From Gemmatimonadaceae bacterium (GTDB lineage Bacteria; Gemmatimonadota; Gemmatimonadetes; Gemmatimonadales; Gemmatimonadaceae): a stretch of 64,000 nt of DNA. The stretch is from assembly GCA_020852815.1 (NCBI GenBank), contig JADZAN010000039.1, positions 1 through 64,000 on the forward strand, given 5' to 3'. The notes under the pieces were generated by a model. The model was not told the origin of the DNA and made no database searches. It worked only from the letters and a program-made list of their open reading frames with translations. Shown one piece after another: positions 8,444-15,843 of this stretch. A program made the translations under genes and the position numbers. Every line of letters begins with the position of its first letter. Position 1 is the first letter of the stretch.

Positions 8444-9985
8444 CTACTTCACCGTCTCCCACGCGATCGACGCAATCTCGCCTAACGCCTGGCCCGCCAC
8501 GATCGCCGGATCGCCCTTGGCCACGGCGACGTTGTTCACGTACACCGCGATCGCCATCTCGCGCCCGCTCTTCGACGTGAAGTAGCCGGTGAGCCCCTTG
8601 CCGTGGATCAACTGGCGGCGATTGAGGGGATCGAACGAGCCGAAGGTCCCCGTCTTGGCCCACACCTTTCCCGCCCCCGGCGCATCGACCTGGATCTTGG
8701 CCAGCGTTCCATCCTTTCCGAGGTTAGGCATCGCCATCTTGAAGTCGTTCGCCCACGGCTTCTCCCACACCTTGGCCAGGAGTCGCGTCATGAAGCGCGG
8801 CGTGAAGTAAGCATCGCCGCCGGCGCCGTCGCCTTGCACCGCGCCATCGAGGTCGAGCCCCTCGCTCGTCAGCCACTCGCGCGCGATGTCGAAGCCGCCC
8901 CTGGTCCCCTCGCCCTTGAGCGCCCCCACGACGAGCGGGAAGTTGGAGGCGTGCAGGTTCTGCGACGTCTTGAGGAGGACGACCGCCTCCTTGGCCAGGT
9001 CGAGCGACGTGTGCTCGGCGACCATGAGCGAGTCTGCATAACGAGCCTTGAGCGCGGCGACATCGACGACGCGCGAGGCCAGGCGCGGAATGGCGCGCAC
9101 GCCGGCATCGCCCAGCACCTCGGCGAAGGTGATCTCGCCAAAGCGCACGGGTGACGGGACCGCCCAGCGCGAGTTGATCGGCGCCCCCATCGGGACCGCG
9201 CCGTTGGCCACCAGGAAGCGGCGATCCTTGTTCGTGCTGTCCTCGGTCATGCGAACACGCGCGTTGACCGTCGAATCGATCGTGGTGAGGTACGCCTGCA
9301 CGGTGAGCAGCGACGTCTTGGGCGAGACCTCGACCGTGGCGGGCTCGCCGACGCGCCGCCCCGGGGTGATGACGATGTCGATGACGTTGTCGTTCACGAC
9401 CATGGGCGACATCACGATGCGCGTTCCCAGTTCGCGCTCCCCTTCCCTGAACAACGAACCATCGACGACCACCTGCCCCGTGAGCCCCTTGATCCCCTTC
9501 GACGCCACCTGCTGCGCCAGCGCACGCAGCGTGGTGAGCGGGTCACTCGGCAGCGGCATTCCGCCGTACGAGTGGTCCTGGTCGATGAAAGCATAACGCC
9601 CGTCGCGCACGCGCCCCGAGATGTTGGGATCGCCCGAGGCCACGAGGACGATGTCGCCCTGCACGATCCCGTTGACGATCGCCCCAGTACGATAGACGCG
9701 CGTGCGGAAGCGATGATCGGCGCCCAGCGCCTGCATCGCCGTCGCCATGGTCACGACCTTGGTGGTGGAACCGGGAACGAAGAGGCGGTCGCCGTTGTAC
9801 GACGCGACGACCTTCTTCGCCGCGATGTCGTAGATCTCGAGCCCGAAGTGCGCGTGCGCGAACTCGGGGCGATTGATGACGTCGAGAATGCGCTTGTTAG
9901 GCGCAGGCTGGGCGGCCAGGGTGGCGGCGGCCGGGAGAATCGCCGCGAGGGCGGTGATGGCGAGGCGTAGCGGACGACGAGACAT
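8444..9985 (-). CDS. dacB: D-alanyl-D-alanine carboxypeptidase/endopeptidase, PBP4 type (peptidase S13)
   Basis: 513 aa with a signal peptide (MSRRPLRLAITALAAILPAAATLAAQ). The penicillin-binding motifs are present in order: SxxK (STTK, Ser73-Lys76), SxN (SQN, around 345) and KTG (AKTGTF, around 463). The large insertion between the first two motifs is characteristic of PBP4/DacB. It trims or cleaves peptidoglycan peptides in the periplasm. It is the last gene of the murein-recycling run, 125 bp after mpl; in-frame ATGs further upstream (10036, 10114) lack a signal-peptide context, so 9985 is preferred. Confidence 0.9.
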   Translation of the reverse strand: MSRRPLRLAITALAAILPAAATLAAQPAPNKRILDVINRPEFAHAHFGLEIYDIAAKKVVASYNGDRLFVPGSTTKVVTMATAMQALGADHRFRTRVYRTGAIVNGIVQGDIVLVASGDPNISGRVRDGRYAFIDQDHSYGGMPLPSDPLTTLRALAQQVASKGIKGLTGQVVVDGSLFREGERELGTRIVMSPMVVNDNVIDIVITPGRRVGEPATVEVSPKTSLLTVQAYLTTIDSTVNARVRMTEDSTNKDRRFLVANGAVPMGAPINSRWAVPSPVRFGEITFAEVLGDAGVRAIPRLASRVVDVAALKARYADSLMVAEHTSLDLAKEAVVLLKTSQNLHASNFPLVVGALKGEGTRGGFDIAREWLTSEGLDLDGAVQGDGAGGDAYFTPRFMTRLLAKVWEKPWANDFKMAMPNLGKDGTLAKIQVDAPGAGKVWAKTGTFGSFDPLNRRQLIHGKGLTGYFTSKSGREMAIAVYVNNVAVAKGDPAIVAGQALGEIASIAWETVK

Positions 9986-10110
9986 GGAAGGCGAAAGCAG
10001 GCGGTCGAGAAAGGGAGCCGGAGGCGCGAGGAACATGCCCGCCGGACCGGTGTGCGTCAAACGGGACTGGATGACAAAGAGACGAGATACTCGCTGCCAT
10101 TGCCCAGCCG

Positions 10111-11589
10111 TCACCGCCCGCTGAGCCCCTCCAGCAACTTCGGGATGAACCCGCCGAACGCGCCGTTGCTCATCACCAGCACCACATCGCCCGCCACCGC
10201 ACCCTGCACCACCTGCCGCACGAGCACCTCGGGATCGGCGTCGGCATGCGCCTCGATGCCACGCGCCGCAATGGCGCGCACGATGGCCGGCACGTCGAGC
10301 TGCTGGTCGGCCGGTACCTTGTCATGCGCTTCCGGGAGGCGAATCGAGACGACGTTGGCCTCATCGAACGCCGCGGCGTACTCCGCCTGATGGATGTTGC
10401 GGCGCGAGGTGTTGGACCGGGGCTCGAAGACGGCCCACAGCCGTCGCGTGGGAAAGCGCTGGCGCATGGCGAGGATCGTCTCGCGCACCGCCGTAGGATG
10501 ATGCGCGAAGTCGTCGATCACGAGCACCCCGCCCACCTCGCCGCGCGGCTCCTGCCGCCGCTTCACGCCGCGAAACGAGGCAAAGCCCCGCGCGATCGCC
10601 GCGGGCTGCAATCCTAACGAGCGCGCCGCCGCGTACACGCCTGTCGCGTTCTCCAGGTTGTGGTAGCCGGTCATCGGGAGGAGCAGTTCGACCGACTCGC
10701 CATTGGGGCCATCGATCGTGAAGTGCGTCCCTTCTTCCGAGAAGCGTGCATCGTGTCCGCGCACGTCGGCCTCACGCTCCCACGCATAGGTCTGCACGTG
10801 CGCGCTGGTGCTGCGCCGCGCGATGGCGACCGCGCCGGGATACGACGCCGCGACGCCGAGCCAGCCATCGCTGGGGAGCACCGCCCCCAGTTGCTCGAAC
10901 GCCGACTCGTAGTGTGCCATGTCGCGGTAGATGTCGGCGTGATCGAACTCGACCGACGTCAGGAGCGCGGTCCTGGCGCGGTAGTGCAGGAACTTGGGCC
11001 CCTTGTCCCAGTATGCGGTGTCGTACTCGTCCCCCTCGACGACGACGTGCGCCCCATCTCCCAACCGGTAGTTGCCGCCGTAGTTGAGCGTCACCCCTCC
11101 CACGAGAAACGTGGGATCGAGCGCTGCCTCGGCGAGCACATGTCCCATCAGTGCCGACGTCGTCGTCTTCCCGTGCGTCCCCGCGATCACGATGGCATGG
11201 CGCGTGGCGGCTATCAGCGCCCCGAACGCCGAGGGGAACGACATCTGCGGCAGCCCGCGCTCGCGCACCGCAGTCGCCTCGGGATTGACCCGGCGGATGA
11301 CGTTGCCGATGATGACCAGGTCGGGGCGCGCGCGGTCGAGGTTGGCTGGCGCATACGGCGTGTAGGTCTCGATCCCCCATTCACGCAGCATGTCGCTCAT
11401 GGGAGGATAGACGTTCTCATCGCTCCCCGTCACGGTGTAGCCGGCTGCCTTGAGCATCCCGGCAAAGGCACCCATCCCCGTCCCGGCGACGCCGACGAGG
11501 TGGATGCGATGGATCGCGGAGGGATCGATGTCGGTGACGACGTTGCCGCTGTCGGGGCTCGCTGGATTCGGTGCAGCTGAAACGGACAC
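10111..11589 (-). CDS. mpl: UDP-N-acetylmuramate:L-Ala-gamma-D-Glu-meso-DAP ligase
   Basis: About 492 aa. A Mur-ligase architecture is clear: N-terminal Rossmann segment (HLVGVAGTGMGAFAGMLKAAG), ATP-binding loop GTHGKTTTS at 137-145, then VEGDEYDTA and a central YHNLENATGVYAAA. The pattern fits Mpl better than MurC. Mpl re-attaches recycled murein tripeptide to UDP-MurNAc in the cytoplasm. The frame stays open upstream into the preceding gene; the GTG at 11589 is preferred because it falls 17 bp after that gene's stop, but no start is certain. Neighbours that produce or degrade the tripeptide support the recycling role. Confidence 0.88.
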   Translation of the reverse strand: MSVSAAPNPASPDSGNVVTDIDPSAIHRIHLVGVAGTGMGAFAGMLKAAGYTVTGSDENVYPPMSDMLREWGIETYTPYAPANLDRARPDLVIIGNVIRRVNPEATAVRERGLPQMSFPSAFGALIAATRHAIVIAGTHGKTTTSALMGHVLAEAALDPTFLVGGVTLNYGGNYRLGDGAHVVVEGDEYDTAYWDKGPKFLHYRARTALLTSVEFDHADIYRDMAHYESAFEQLGAVLPSDGWLGVAASYPGAVAIARRSTSAHVQTYAWEREADVRGHDARFSEEGTHFTIDGPNGESVELLLPMTGYHNLENATGVYAAARSLGLQPAAIARGFASFRGVKRRQEPRGEVGGVLVIDDFAHHPTAVRETILAMRQRFPTRRLWAVFEPRSNTSRRNIHQAEYAAAFDEANVVSIRLPEAHDKVPADQQLDVPAIVRAIAARGIEAHADADPEVLVRQVVQGAVAGDVVLVMSNGAFGGFIPKLLEGLSGR

Positions 11590-11605
11590 GCTGGTAGACA
11601 GGGGC

Positions 11606-12838
11606 CTAGCCCCAGAACAGGTAAGCGACGAAGATCGCCGCGACGACGCCGGCAAGGTCGGCGAGGAGGCCGAGTGCAACCGCACTCCGCGTCTTCCGCA
11701 CGCCGACCGAGCCGAAGTAGAGGGCGAGGATGTAGAAGGTGGTATCGGTTGCCCCCTGAAAGGTGGACGCCAGGCGTCCGACGAACGAATCGGCGCCGTA
11801 GGTCTTCATCGCATCGACCATCATCCCGCGGGCACCGCTTCCACTCAGCGGCTTCATGAGTGCCGTGGGGAGTGCGGGAACGATGTCGCTGCGCAGCCCC
11901 ATCGCCTCGAGCAGGTTGCTCAACCCCGTCACGAGCAGGTCGAGCGTCCCCGAGGCGCGGAAGACGCCGATGGCCACGAGAACGGCAATGAGGTACGGGA
12001 TGATGCGCACCGCCACGTTGAACCCTTCCTTTCCCCCCTCCACGAAGGCCTCGTAGGCATTGACCTTCTTGACCATCGCCATGATCAGGAAGCCGGAGAT
12101 GACGCCGTAGAGGATCACGTTGGCGACAACGTTGGAGATTGCTTGCACCTGCTCCTGCGGCAGCCCCGTGAAGTACCACGTGACCGCGGCCACGAGCCCG
12201 GTCACCGCCACGAGGTAGCCGAGGACGACGGTGTCGAGGAGGTTGATGCGCTGCACGATGGCCGTGGCGATGAGCGCAACCAGCGTGGCGAAGTACGTCG
12301 TGATGAGGATGGGGATGAAGACGTCCGACGGGTTGGTCGCGCCAAGCTGCGCCCGGTACACCATGATGCTGATCGGGATGATCGTGAGCCCCGAGGTGTT
12401 GAGGACGAGGAACATGATCTGCGCGTTCGTCGCCGTATCCTTCTCCGGGTTCAGCTCCTGCAGCTCGTTCATCGCCTTGAGCCCGAGCGGCGTCGCCGCG
12501 TTGTCGAGCCCCAGCATGTTGGCGGCGAAGTTCATGATGATTGACCCGATGGCCGGATGCTCGGGCGGGACCTCGGGGAAGAGTCGCCGGAAGAACGGGC
12601 GCACGATCCTCGCCATCACGTCGATGGCTCCGCCCTTCTCCCCCACCTTCATGAGCCCCAGCCAGAGCGTGAGGACGCCCGTCAGCCCCAACGAGATGTC
12701 GAAGCCGGTCTTGGCCGAGTCGAAGGTTGCCTGCACCATCGAGGTGAAGACCGCCGTGTCCCCCAGGACAATGAGCTTGACCAGCGCCACCACGAGGGCA
12801 ATGAGGAAGAAGGCGAGCCAGATGTAGTTGAGCGTCAC
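11606..12838 (-). CDS. fused SpmA-SpmB-like nucleoside-recognition (Gate) domain membrane protein
   Basis: 410 aa, about eight or more predicted membrane segments. The first half carries the SpmA-type Gate region (SLGLTGVLTLWLGLMKVGEKGG, then NFAANMLGLDNAATPLGLKAM). The second half carries the SpmB-type region (VRIIPYLIAVLVAIGVFRASG; KPLSGSGARGM; GATDTTFYIL). In Bacillus SpmA and SpmB are separate proteins affecting spore maturation; the fused form is known in non-sporulating bacteria with no settled function. Here the start ATG overlaps the MpaA stop by 4 nt and mpl follows, so transport of murein peptides or a related metabolite is a reasonable inference. Confidence 0.85.
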   Translation of the reverse strand: MTLNYIWLAFFLIALVVALVKLIVLGDTAVFTSMVQATFDSAKTGFDISLGLTGVLTLWLGLMKVGEKGGAIDVMARIVRPFFRRLFPEVPPEHPAIGSIIMNFAANMLGLDNAATPLGLKAMNELQELNPEKDTATNAQIMFLVLNTSGLTIIPISIMVYRAQLGATNPSDVFIPILITTYFATLVALIATAIVQRINLLDTVVLGYLVAVTGLVAAVTWYFTGLPQEQVQAISNVVANVILYGVISGFLIMAMVKKVNAYEAFVEGGKEGFNVAVRIIPYLIAVLVAIGVFRASGTLDLLVTGLSNLLEAMGLRSDIVPALPTALMKPLSGSGARGMMVDAMKTYGADSFVGRLASTFQGATDTTFYILALYFGSVGVRKTRSAVALGLLADLAGVVAAIFVAYLFWG

Positions 12839-13575
12839 GGCAGCGTCCCCGTGAGGAGTTCGACGAGCACCGGAACGTGGTCGCGCATCAGGACCTCGGT
12901 GGCGGCAAGGGGAAACTCATACGTGATGACGGGGACACCGTGCTCCGCTCCCCACGAACCGAACGACCCGGGGGTGGGATAGCCCACGTCGCGCACCAGC
13001 GGCATCCCGGTGCGCGCGGCGAGTCGCCTGCCTAACGGCGAGTCGTTCGCGTCGTCGATGCAGGCCAGCGGCGCGTGCAGTGCAACCACCACCGACGGGC
13101 GCAGCTCCCCGATGAGCGACAGCAGCGCCCGCACCTCGGGCTCGGAGCCAGGCTCACTGCCCGTCCCGAGCACCACGTCGCTCGGATCCTCGATGGTCGA
13201 GCGGCAGGTGACCGAAGCGGCCTGCCAACTGGCGGTCGGGAAGTTGCGATTGAGGTCGACGCCGCGCGCGTTGCCACGCGTCCCGCGAATGAGACCGTCC
13301 GGATTGGCGGCCAGCACGACCGCCGATTGCTCTGCCTGGCCCGGGAGCTGCCGCAGCGCGCGCGACAGCGCATAGGTCGTCTCGGGCTCCTCGCCATGGA
13401 TCGACGCGAAGACGAGGAGCTCGCAACGCCCGCGCGGGCGCCAGACCTCGAGCGGGAGCCCCAGGACCGACCGCCCGTAGGTGGTGGGGAGCACGTGGTG
13501 CGTCCCCCATTGCGCTCGTGCGCGCAACGTGAGTGGTTCGTTAGGCAACCGGTCCCCCGGGCGGCGGCGAAACAT
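12835..13575 (-). CDS. mpaA: murein peptide amidase MpaA-like M14 zinc carboxypeptidase
   Basis: 246 aa with no signal peptide, so cytoplasmic. Zinc ligands His60 and Glu63 (HGEE) and His167 (ALHAP), the substrate segment NPDG-x-RGTRGNARGVDLNRNFP and catalytic Glu220 (TYEFP) are all present. The short length, about 240 aa without a propeptide, matches MpaA, which cuts gamma-D-Glu-meso-DAP in free murein tripeptide. It overlaps the M15 gene by 35 nt upstream and the SpmAB gene by 4 nt downstream. Other small M14 enzymes remain possible, but the neighbourhood favours MpaA. Confidence 0.82.
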   Translation of the reverse strand: MFRRRPGDRLPNEPLTLRARAQWGTHHVLPTTYGRSVLGLPLEVWRPRGRCELLVFASIHGEEPETTYALSRALRQLPGQAEQSAVVLAANPDGLIRGTRGNARGVDLNRNFPTASWQAASVTCRSTIEDPSDVVLGTGSEPGSEPEVRALLSLIGELRPSVVVALHAPLACIDDANDSPLGRRLAARTGMPLVRDVGYPTPGSFGSWGAEHGVPVITYEFPLAATEVLMRDHVPVLVELLTGTLP

Positions 13576-14263
13576 TCAGCACGAAGCGCGCGTGGATCTC
13601 GTCCAGGTGCTCGAGCACGGTCTCCTTGAGCGCGAGATCGGCGTGCAGCACCGTCTCACGCAAGACGTCGAGGGTGAGGCGTGGAAGGTACTGCGCGGCG
13701 AGCGGGGCGTGGCTCAGGTGCCAGCGTTCCGGCGCCACCCCGCCGCGGTCGCGGTCATACGGCCGGTAGAAGCCGTGTGCCGTGCCAGTCGCTATGCGCT
13801 CATCGAGCCACGCGTGCAACGGCGCATGCATCCCTCCCGGCTCCACCTCCGCTGGAACGAGCTGCACCACGTACCCCGCGGGCGTCGCCGCGGCGTCGAC
13901 AACGTCCACGTCGGTCCCCCAGTGATGACGCGAGGCGCCGGGGAGCGCCGACCAGCGCAGGATCGAGAAGACCAGGTCACGCGGCGCCAGCTTCGCGATG
14001 TCGAGCGGCTGCGCATTCGAGTCGAGGACGGCTAGTTCGCCCCGCACCTTCCGGTTCCAGATGGAGAGCTGTCGGTCAAACGATCGGAAGCCACTCTCCA
14101 GCCGCAAGTCGAATCCCTCCCTCGACGCCGCCTCGCGCAGCCGGAGCAGCGGCGCCAGCGCGTCGCGGTGCACGAGCGCGCCCAGCACGTCCCCCTCCTC
14201 AGGCGTGCAGAGATGGTCGGTCGTGCACCCGCTGAGCAGTTGTTCCAGGGCAATGACGGTCAT
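13541..14263 (-). CDS. M15B (VanY/LdcB-type) D-Ala carboxypeptidase, apparently cytoplasmic
   Basis: 240 aa. M15B signature elements are visible: SGFRSFDRQ at 57-65, SxHxxG ending in Asp120 (SRHHWGTDVD, zinc ligands His113 and Asp120), and ExWH (Glu179, His182). Unlike typical VanY or LdcB it has no signal peptide or membrane anchor. In this operon a cytoplasmic L,D- or D,D-carboxypeptidase would convert murein tetra- or pentapeptides to the tripeptide that Mpl and MpaA use, a job done by LdcA in E. coli. The start overlaps the preceding aminotransferase stop (ATGA), which fixes the ATG at 14263. Confidence 0.78.
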   Translation of the reverse strand: MTVIALEQLLSGCTTDHLCTPEEGDVLGALVHRDALAPLLRLREAASREGFDLRLESGFRSFDRQLSIWNRKVRGELAVLDSNAQPLDIAKLAPRDLVFSILRWSALPGASRHHWGTDVDVVDAAATPAGYVVQLVPAEVEPGGMHAPLHAWLDERIATGTAHGFYRPYDRDRGGVAPERWHLSHAPLAAQYLPRLTLDVLRETVLHADLALKETVLEHLDEIHARFVLNVSPPPGGPVA

Positions 14264-15588
14264 CGCAGCGCCTCGATCAACCGTTCCGCATCGGTCACGT
14301 CGTTGTACACGGACGGGGCAATGCGCATCCAGTGTTGCGCCACCCGCACGTTCACCTTCGCCGCCGCCAGCCTGTGGGGAACGTCGCTGTCGCCCAGCCC
14401 CGTCCTGGCAAAGGTGACGATGGGCCCAGTTGCGCCTGGCGGTGTGACCGCGGTGAATCCAAGCCGCGGTAACTCGCGCTGCAACATGGCGATGATCGGC
14501 GCGCGATGCGCCTGGATCCTCTCCACGCCGAGCGACAGCACGTACTGCAGCGACGTGGAGAGCAACGCCATCATCACCTCGGCGCTCCCCGTCAACGCCC
14601 CCATCTCGAAATGACCCGATGCCGACGTGCTGAAGTCGTACACAATGGGCGCGTAGCGTCCTGGCGGGAGGTTGGGGGGATAGTTGGGTTCGATGCTCGC
14701 GGCCTGATAGTAGCCCACCACAGGGCGCTCGATCCTGGTTAACGCTGCTTCGCTTGCGTAGAGGAAGCCCAGGCCAAAATCGCCCATGAGCCACTTGAAC
14801 GACGAGCAGGCGGCGAAGTCGATTCCCAGCGCCTTGACGTCGATGGGAACGGCGCCGGCGGCATGCACGATGTCGACGTAAACCATCGCCCCGTGCGCGT
14901 GCGCGAGGTCGGCGACCCGCTTGAGATCGTGCTGGAAGCCGTTGTACATCGCCGCCGCCGACACCTCGATGAGGCGCGTCCTGTTGTCGACGACGCGTTC
15001 GAGGTCGCGGAAGTCGATGCGCGCGTCCGGCGTCGGCGCGACGACGCGCACGTCGAGTCCGCGCTGGCGCAATGCGTCGAGGTGCATCAGTGCCCCCTCG
15101 AAGTGCAGCCCGTCAGTCACAACGTTGCCATCGCGCCGGTGGTCGAGCCCCAGCGCGCGCACGACGAAGTTCTCGCCGGCGCTGGTGCTCGACACGTGCG
15201 CCACCTCGCTCGGCTTCGCGTTGATGAGTTGCGCGAAGAGCGCCTTGGGGGTGGGGCGACTGGCCGCACCGGGGACCGTCATCGTGGCGCGCGCCGTCCC
15301 GCGTGCATCGGCTGCCCGGCGCGCCGCCTCGACCGAGACGCGTGGGATGGGGTGCGTGTACGCGGCGTTGAGAAAGGTCACCCCTTCCTCGATGACGAAG
15401 TCGTCCTTGCGGGGAAACTGAGCACCCGCAAGGGGAAGGGCGGCGGCGTCCAGTGGCGCAGCGACCGCGCCGCCAGCGCGCAGCTCCAGCGAGCGCGCCG
15501 CGGCCAGACCGCCTAACGCGCCGAGCATTTCGCGACGATCCATGGTGGCGCGATCCATGGCGGGACGATCCATGGCAGGACGATCCAT
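14260..15588 (-). CDS. class V PLP-dependent aminotransferase/epimerase-like protein with export-type leader
   Basis: About 442 aa. PLP-binding features: VDIVHAAG with Asp239 and the Schiff-base Lys265 in CSSFKWLMGDFG, as in isopenicillin-N-epimerase/cysteine-desulfurase-like fold I enzymes. The N-terminus is unusual: four near-identical 15-bp repeats give MDRPA-MDRPA-MDRAT-MDRRE, each beginning with ATG (15588, 15573, 15558, 15543), so the start cannot be fixed. The last runs into a twin-arginine-like leader (MDRREMLGALGGLAAARS). It is the first gene of the murein-recycling operon. The substrate is unknown; action on D-amino acids or cell-wall peptides is inference. Confidence 0.72.
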   Translation of the reverse strand: MDRPAMDRPAMDRATMDRREMLGALGGLAAARSLELRAGGAVAAPLDAAALPLAGAQFPRKDDFVIEEGVTFLNAAYTHPIPRVSVEAARRAADARGTARATMTVPGAASRPTPKALFAQLINAKPSEVAHVSSTSAGENFVVRALGLDHRRDGNVVTDGLHFEGALMHLDALRQRGLDVRVVAPTPDARIDFRDLERVVDNRTRLIEVSAAAMYNGFQHDLKRVADLAHAHGAMVYVDIVHAAGAVPIDVKALGIDFAACSSFKWLMGDFGLGFLYASEAALTRIERPVVGYYQAASIEPNYPPNLPPGRYAPIVYDFSTSASGHFEMGALTGSAEVMMALLSTSLQYVLSLGVERIQAHRAPIIAMLQRELPRLGFTAVTPPGATGPIVTFARTGLGDSDVPHRLAAAKVNVRVAQHWMRIAPSVYNDVTDAERLIEALR

Positions 15589-15602
15589 GGCAACGAGGTG
15601 GG
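15543..15602 (-). repeat. 15-bp tandem repeat carrying four candidate start codons
   Basis: The unit cgatccatggc-(a/g)gga recurs four times with 15-bp spacing across 15535-15595, each copy contributing an in-frame ATG for the aminotransferase. The repeat number would change the leader length without breaking the frame. Confidence 0.75.
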
Positions 15603-15843
15603 ACGGCGTGGACGGGAAGCGGGGAAGTCCTCCCCATGGCGCCACGCCCCGACTGCAGGCGTTGCACCCCCGTACGAATGTACCCCGATCCACGCCCTCG
15701 GCGAGCACTGCGACGCCGGTAGGCGACGCCGCAGCGCTCGTCGTGCGCCCGATCCCGGTTTGTATCCGGTTCGGGGGCTACCCTCGCTCGCGCATGGTGC
15801 CTGGTCGCGCGGGCGTCCTGTTCGGGCGCCCGCTACAGGCCCT

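Follow-up and report, generated by a model that had tools for sequence, protein, structure and literature searches.

The locus examined here raises the question of whether a VanY-family peptidase encoded among genes of murein recycling can do the work of LdcA, the unrelated L,D-carboxypeptidase of the S66 family, as the first-pass annotation had suggested. The gene occupies positions 13541..14263 on the minus strand of the window, by which we mean the whole 64,000-nucleotide stretch of Gemmatimonadaceae DNA that was analysed, and its open reading frame specifies a 240-residue product of the M15B/VanY family. Pfam, active-site residues, alignment and a structural model point to a zinc peptidase without a leader, most likely an L,D-carboxypeptidase of the LdcV type. 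The VanY domain (PF02557; 86.9 bits, cut-off 25) is the only Pfam domain of the protein, which carries neither a YkuD nor an S66 domain. The active site had been described as intact, and this was borne out: His113, Asp120, Glu179 and His182 are all present at those positions, and none of them varies in an alignment of 52 sequences that includes the window's own. The structure paper on LdcB gives His153, Asp160 and His207 as zinc ligands and Glu204 as important in catalysis (PMC4087270), and the spacing of these four residues in the SpLdcB sequence matches that of H113, D120, H182 and E179.

The M15 gene heads a run of minus-strand genes in the order M15, mpaA, two-Gate protein, Mpl-like ligase, dacB. 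The mpaA gene (12835..13575, minus strand) overlaps the 3' end of the M15 gene and encodes MpaA, a murein tripeptide amidase of the M14 family (NCBIfam NF007897, 235.4 bits, cut-off 157). It is followed by a gene for a 410-residue membrane protein with two Gate domains (PF07670, by Pfam) in an SpmA-SpmB-like arrangement (11606..12838, minus strand), and by a gene for an Mpl-like UDP-MurNAc:murein tripeptide ligase (10111..11685, minus strand), whose true start probably lies further downstream than this call. The ligase scores 355 bits with TIGR01081, below the cut-off of 388.7, and 297.7 bits as MurC; the Mpl-like proteins of three relatives likewise fall below the cut-off (365.1, 349.6 and 352 bits), and two S66-linked Mpl proteins lie above it (449-451 bits). 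An exported PBP4/DacB-type D-Ala-D-Ala carboxypeptidase/endopeptidase closes the run (8444..10114, minus strand; TIGR00666, 135.3 bits, cut-off 107.8). The conservation of this arrangement was evaluated in the 22 carriers of the M15 gene found among 370 Gemmatimonadota genomes of at least 85% completeness. The mpaA gene was located at most 0.7 kb from the M15 gene in 21 of the 22 (window counted), 20 had a Gate gene in the block, alongside M15 and mpaA or mpl, and mpl belonged to the block in 7; some carrier contigs are short, and one of the two carriers without a Gate gene stops at a contig edge. Two further genes were rejected as conserved members of the block, because neither turned up near M15 in any of the 21 relatives looked at: dacB, and the aminotransferase-like gene upstream (14260-15708, minus strand). 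The latter encodes a protein resembling class V aminotransferases/cysteine desulfurases; reading by eye showed a twin-arginine-like stretch, MDRREMLGALGG, and the stop of the gene overlaps the M15 start as ATGA.

If the M15 enzyme takes the place of LdcA, the content of the rest of the genome matters. The window's genome comprises 5.38 Mb in 47 contigs, with a listed completeness of 100% and contamination of 1.7%. A search of the whole genome for an S66 protein (LdcA; PF02016) found none; the same search, run as a control on 14 well-known genomes, was positive in 6, E. coli included. Nor was a second VanY-family gene found genome-wide, so that the M15 gene is the sole one. Three YkuD genes are present, and the first 60 residues of each product include a hydrophobic stretch (15-residue means of 2.25-2.47; the M15 protein reaches 1.31); an ElsL-like, i.e. 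YkuD, substitute for LdcA was rejected for this genome because all three bear leaders. The genome further holds one AmpG-like transporter (186.8 bits, below the cut-off of 350). A gene of the Peptidase_M15_2 family (PF05951, 33.2 bits; no PF02557 match) lies at L022 397-1395 on the minus strand, close to one of the YkuD genes and a gene for a 235-residue product; it carries the motif SRHQYGDAAD, and its start is leader-like, if less clearly (15-residue mean 1.55).

Across the phylum, the M15 and S66 genes replace one another among genomes that bear Mpl. Among the 370 genomes, 22 carried M15, 152 S66 (151 above cut-off) and 67 Mpl, the latter defined with the window's Mpl as query at E≤1e-90, a threshold of our choice. 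The 67 Mpl-bearing genomes had S66 only in 57 cases, M15 only in 9, both in none and neither in a single genome, which is 86% complete; M15, S66 or both occurred in 107 of the 303 genomes without an Mpl match. At the level of genera, where shared descent is likewise ignored, the 30 genera with Mpl divided into 24 with S66 and 6 with M15, with none having both or neither, and 43 of the 106 other genera had M15 or S66. M15 and S66 shared a genome once, compared to 9.0 expected (Fisher p 1.7e-4, a value that ignores shared descent). The single genome with both (G302, locus L129) has no Mpl match. S66 was found without Mpl in 95 genomes, and S66 is thus not always LdcA; similarly, 13 of the 22 M15 carriers have no Mpl match (E≤1e-90), so that the argument from Mpl covers only part of the M15 family. 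The phylum offers a natural experiment: one step of the pathway appears to be filled by either of two unrelated enzymes. Together, gene content (a genome without S66 and the M15/S66 exchange among Mpl genomes), gene order and sequence support the suggestion that the M15B peptidase replaces LdcA.

The preferred reading, which we regard as highly likely on the evidence of sequence and genome comparison, is that the product of the M15 gene acts in the cytoplasm as a zinc-dependent L,D-carboxypeptidase of the LdcV type. The fold by itself is compatible with another specificity. In its AlphaFold model (pLDDT 96.8) the M15 protein is predicted to resemble most closely, among solved structures, VanYB (Z 13.2, 2.8 Å over 152 residues), followed by VanXYg (Z 11.9) and B. 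anthracis LdcB (Z 11.7, 3.0 Å over 143 residues). The protein might accordingly be a cytoplasmic D,D-carboxypeptidase or D,D-dipeptidase, VanY-, VanX- or VanXY-like, acting on pentapeptide precursors or on D-Ala-D-Ala, as would suit the D,D-pentapeptidase VanYB and VanXYg as its top modelled matches. The substrate contacts described for LdcB, Arg120, Gln125 and Ser151 (PMC4087270), have R60, Q65 and S111 as their counterparts by motif spacing, and all three are invariant, but these D-Ala-binding residues do not discriminate: the contacts named for LdcB do not separate L,D- from D,D-enzymes, and the attempt to prove L,D specificity from residues was dropped. Other evidence makes the D,D specificity unlikely. 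No VanY or VanXY model matched the M15 protein at E≤0.001, and its relatives score far below the cut-offs of those models. Its neighbours (mpaA, Gate, mpl, dacB and the aminotransferase-like gene) include no van gene, its neighbours across the carriers are genes for handling tripeptides, and the gene exchanges with S66 among Mpl genomes. Moreover, a D,D-carboxypeptidase in the cytoplasm would be expected to attack the cell's own UDP-MurNAc-pentapeptide.

It is more doubtful still that the protein is a cytoplasmic peptidase for another bond, for example an L-Ala-D-Glu endopeptidase, that serves amino-acid scavenging with MpaA and not Mpl. LAS-family endopeptidases do exist, and ChiX (Z 6.6) and phage endolysins (Z 8.3-8.4) are among the matches of the predicted model; the M15 carriers that have no Mpl match would also fit such a role. 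However, the endolysin matches are weaker than those above, the sequence is nearest to carboxypeptidases, and the residues by which LdcB contacts the carboxylate and D-Ala are conserved.

The proposed place of action depends on the N-terminus. Only one other in-frame start is available, 177 residues upstream and within the upstream gene. The N-terminus extended to this start reaches a maximal 15-residue Kyte-Doolittle mean of 0.97, while the leader of the window's DacB scores 2.0; as the 177-residue extension thus holds no hydrophobic segment, a longer start with a signal peptide was ruled out, and the claim that the peptidase lacks a leader stands. Close to the predicted start, a segment L10-x-G12-x4-H17 is kept in 9 of 9 sequences compared. 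Counts for relatives refer to 79, since one of 80 (L027) was excluded because no start codon was found; a partial relative (L038) is counted among the 79. A looser form of the segment occurs within the first 25 residues in 68 of the 79 relatives, and in 38 of the 79 an upstream start is impossible. We infer from the sequence that the protein stays in the cytoplasm. Export by a route invisible in the sequence, with wall trimming in the periplasm as by LdcB, would agree with the habit of VanY/LdcB enzymes, which are normally exported, but is the least probable reading given the missing leader, the lack of an alternative start with one, the family segment near the start across phyla, and the LdcV precedent, in which recycled peptides are acted upon in the cytoplasm (PMC11555704).

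Replacement of LdcA by a zinc enzyme of the LAS type is not new in kind, as it is already published under the name LdcV. The LdcV publication (2020) is cited in PMC8649774, PMC8630537, PMC11555704 and PMC6888817. According to these, V. cholerae, A. hydrophila and P. mirabilis have in LdcV a zinc metalloprotease of the LAS type that carries out the task of LdcA (PMC8649774), and the purified V. cholerae enzyme turned tetrapeptide muropeptides into tripeptides (PMC6888817). The M15 gene very probably represents LdcV in a phylum new to it, set in a different gene block; the identification with LdcV rests on family and on elimination in records of P. mirabilis and A. caviae, not on an accession. 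These species were the only ones found by tblastn in the plasmid collection (two records and one record, respectively), and the records are apparently chromosomes because they are 4-5 Mb long. Each P. mirabilis and A. caviae record searched contains exactly one VanY-family gene, the M15 relative, and no S66; identity to the M15 protein is 38.9% for P. mirabilis and 46.7% for A. caviae. Two records filed as plasmids, NZ_OL790811.1 (L012, 4.08 Mb) and NZ_AP026896.1 (L013, 4.94 Mb), are apparently mislabelled chromosomes; in both, dapE adjoins the LdcV-type gene. A set of 31 named genomes and records that carry an LdcV-type gene, which leaves out the second Proteus record, showed at least one VanY-family match throughout, with S66 absent in 23 and present in 8. 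No NCBIfam model scored above cut-off for five LdcV-type proteins or for the window's M15 protein, and LdcV-type genes are therefore likely annotated merely as VanY-family carboxypeptidases.

The closest named relatives of the M15 protein are on Gemmatimonadetes MAG contigs (best 68% identical). The family was searched with the patterns PG[AT]SRHHW and [FL][ED]RQ[LSN][SA]IWN. The Ala position of SxHxxGxAxD, which these patterns do not fix, is Asp or Glu in 79 of 79 relatives. A viral source of the gene was considered and rejected, with no match to the M15-protein patterns in viral_contigs. Genes of recycling or of diaminopimelate metabolism recur beside the relatives, in differing arrangements: among the 79, mpaA adjoins the M15-type gene in 5 Fibrobacterota loci (2 checked, both passing the MpaA cut-off), 12 gammaproteobacteria have mpl 2-5 kb downstream (of the 10 that were checked, every one passes the Mpl cut-off), dapE is directly upstream of the LdcV-type gene in 22, and three Gemmatimonadota loci have the block; within at most 6 kb on each side, no linkage to mpaA, mpl or dapE was seen in the remaining loci. 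A midpoint-rooted tree of 101 sequences, which includes the Vibrio genes and omits L038 and an M15 carrier cut by a contig end (G174), united the 24 Gemmatimonadota sequences (with two identical pairs) in one group with support 88/91. Nearest to it were the Fibrobacterota, with a joint support of 99/91. In the literature on peptidoglycan recycling in Gemmatimonadota we found no paper on an LdcV-type enzyme there. With these findings, the range of LdcV-type recycling enzymes grows beyond Proteobacteria to take in Gemmatimonadota; the same search adds Fibrobacterota and Bdellovibrionota. The findings also imply that a genome without LdcA need not be without tripeptide recycling.

A scheme for the pathway can be proposed on this basis. 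Peptides from wall turnover would reach the cytoplasm, where the M15 enzyme, with zinc held by His113, Asp120 and His182 and with Glu179 serving catalysis, would release D-Ala from the end of L-Ala-D-Glu-mDAP-D-Ala tetrapeptides, whether these are free or attached to sugar. The resulting tripeptide could then be joined to UDP-MurNAc via Mpl or be split by MpaA. Trimming would stop Mpl from making tetrapeptide precursors that spoil cross-linking, a safeguard that in E. coli falls to the unrelated serine enzyme LdcA. Tetrapeptide precursors are reported to harm the wall when trimming is missing in E. coli and V. cholerae (PMC13046382, PMC11555704).

The membrane protein encoded at 11606-12838 is the remaining regular partner of the M15 enzyme in Gemmatimonadota. 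Its Pfam Gate domains and the two-gene form seen in relatives give it the likeness of an SpmA-SpmB fusion, and we take SpmA and SpmB to be its nearest named kin; the predicted model is of little guidance (pLDDT 39.1, with only 5 sequences in the alignment). Gate genes also occur where S66 stands in place of the M15 gene. At 2 of 11 S66-bearing mpl loci examined (G094 and G303) Gate is present as two genes directly beside mpl, and at a third (G085) two Gate genes lie a few kb from mpl and S66; no Gate gene was seen in the stretch examined at the remaining 8, of which seven have the window's Mpl type and one is G344. The loci in G094 and G303 (L142 and L144) show a Gate-Gate-mpl run with S66 0.5-3 kb further on, a parallel arrangement with S66 in the stead of the M15 enzyme. 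We tentatively suggest, as one possibility that we ourselves think doubtful, that the two-Gate protein is a permease for murein peptides or breakdown products, partnering whichever L,D-carboxypeptidase the cell has. The SpmA/SpmB literature that we found concerns mainly sporulation, and a search for papers linking murein peptides to Gate or SpmA proteins found nothing on point. A 2012 survey lists SpmA and SpmB as having no known enzymatic activity (PMC3533761), the B. subtilis genes spmA and spmB are described as lying in one operon with dacB (PMC8745062), and loss of SpmA/SpmB is reported to give spores with a wetter core. If the permease reading were true, it would suggest a biochemical role for SpmA/SpmB. 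The conserved partner with Gate domains also offers a way to test what SpmA/SpmB-type proteins do outside the setting of sporulation.

VanY and VanXY enzymes are D,D-specific and belong to the context of vancomycin resistance. The M15 protein shares their Pfam family and fold, but differs from them in having no VanXY or VanY model match (E≤0.001) and no resistance context. ElsL of Acinetobacter baumannii, a YkuD protein, is another cytoplasmic stand-in for LdcA (PMC8649774); it is a cysteine enzyme unrelated to the M15 protein, in which a YkuD domain is absent. The resemblance to LdcB/DacB of S. pneumoniae, B. subtilis (YodJ) and B. anthracis lies in the fold and the zinc site, and the chemistry of these enzymes is that of an L,D-carboxypeptidase. 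However, LdcB is described as trimming the wall outside the cytoplasm (PMC4087270), whereas the M15 protein is leaderless; identity over structural alignments is 24-28%, the NCBIfam LdcB model gives only 19.4 bits (cut-off 275), and alignments place D118 of the M15 protein opposite a Thr in B. anthracis LdcB and an Ala in VanYB. With LdcA of E. coli, an S66 serine peptidase, the M15 enzyme would share reaction, compartment and pathway step, while it is unrelated in fold and catalytic chemistry, and S66 is absent from its genome. The closest parallel is LdcV: both are of the LAS/M15 zinc family, leaderless and apparently engaged in recycling where S66 is missing, and the M15 protein is 39-47% identical to the sole VanY-family gene of the P. 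mirabilis and A. caviae records. What sets it apart from LdcV is its place in an mpaA-Gate-mpl block and not after dapE, in a different phylum and in a separate group of the tree.
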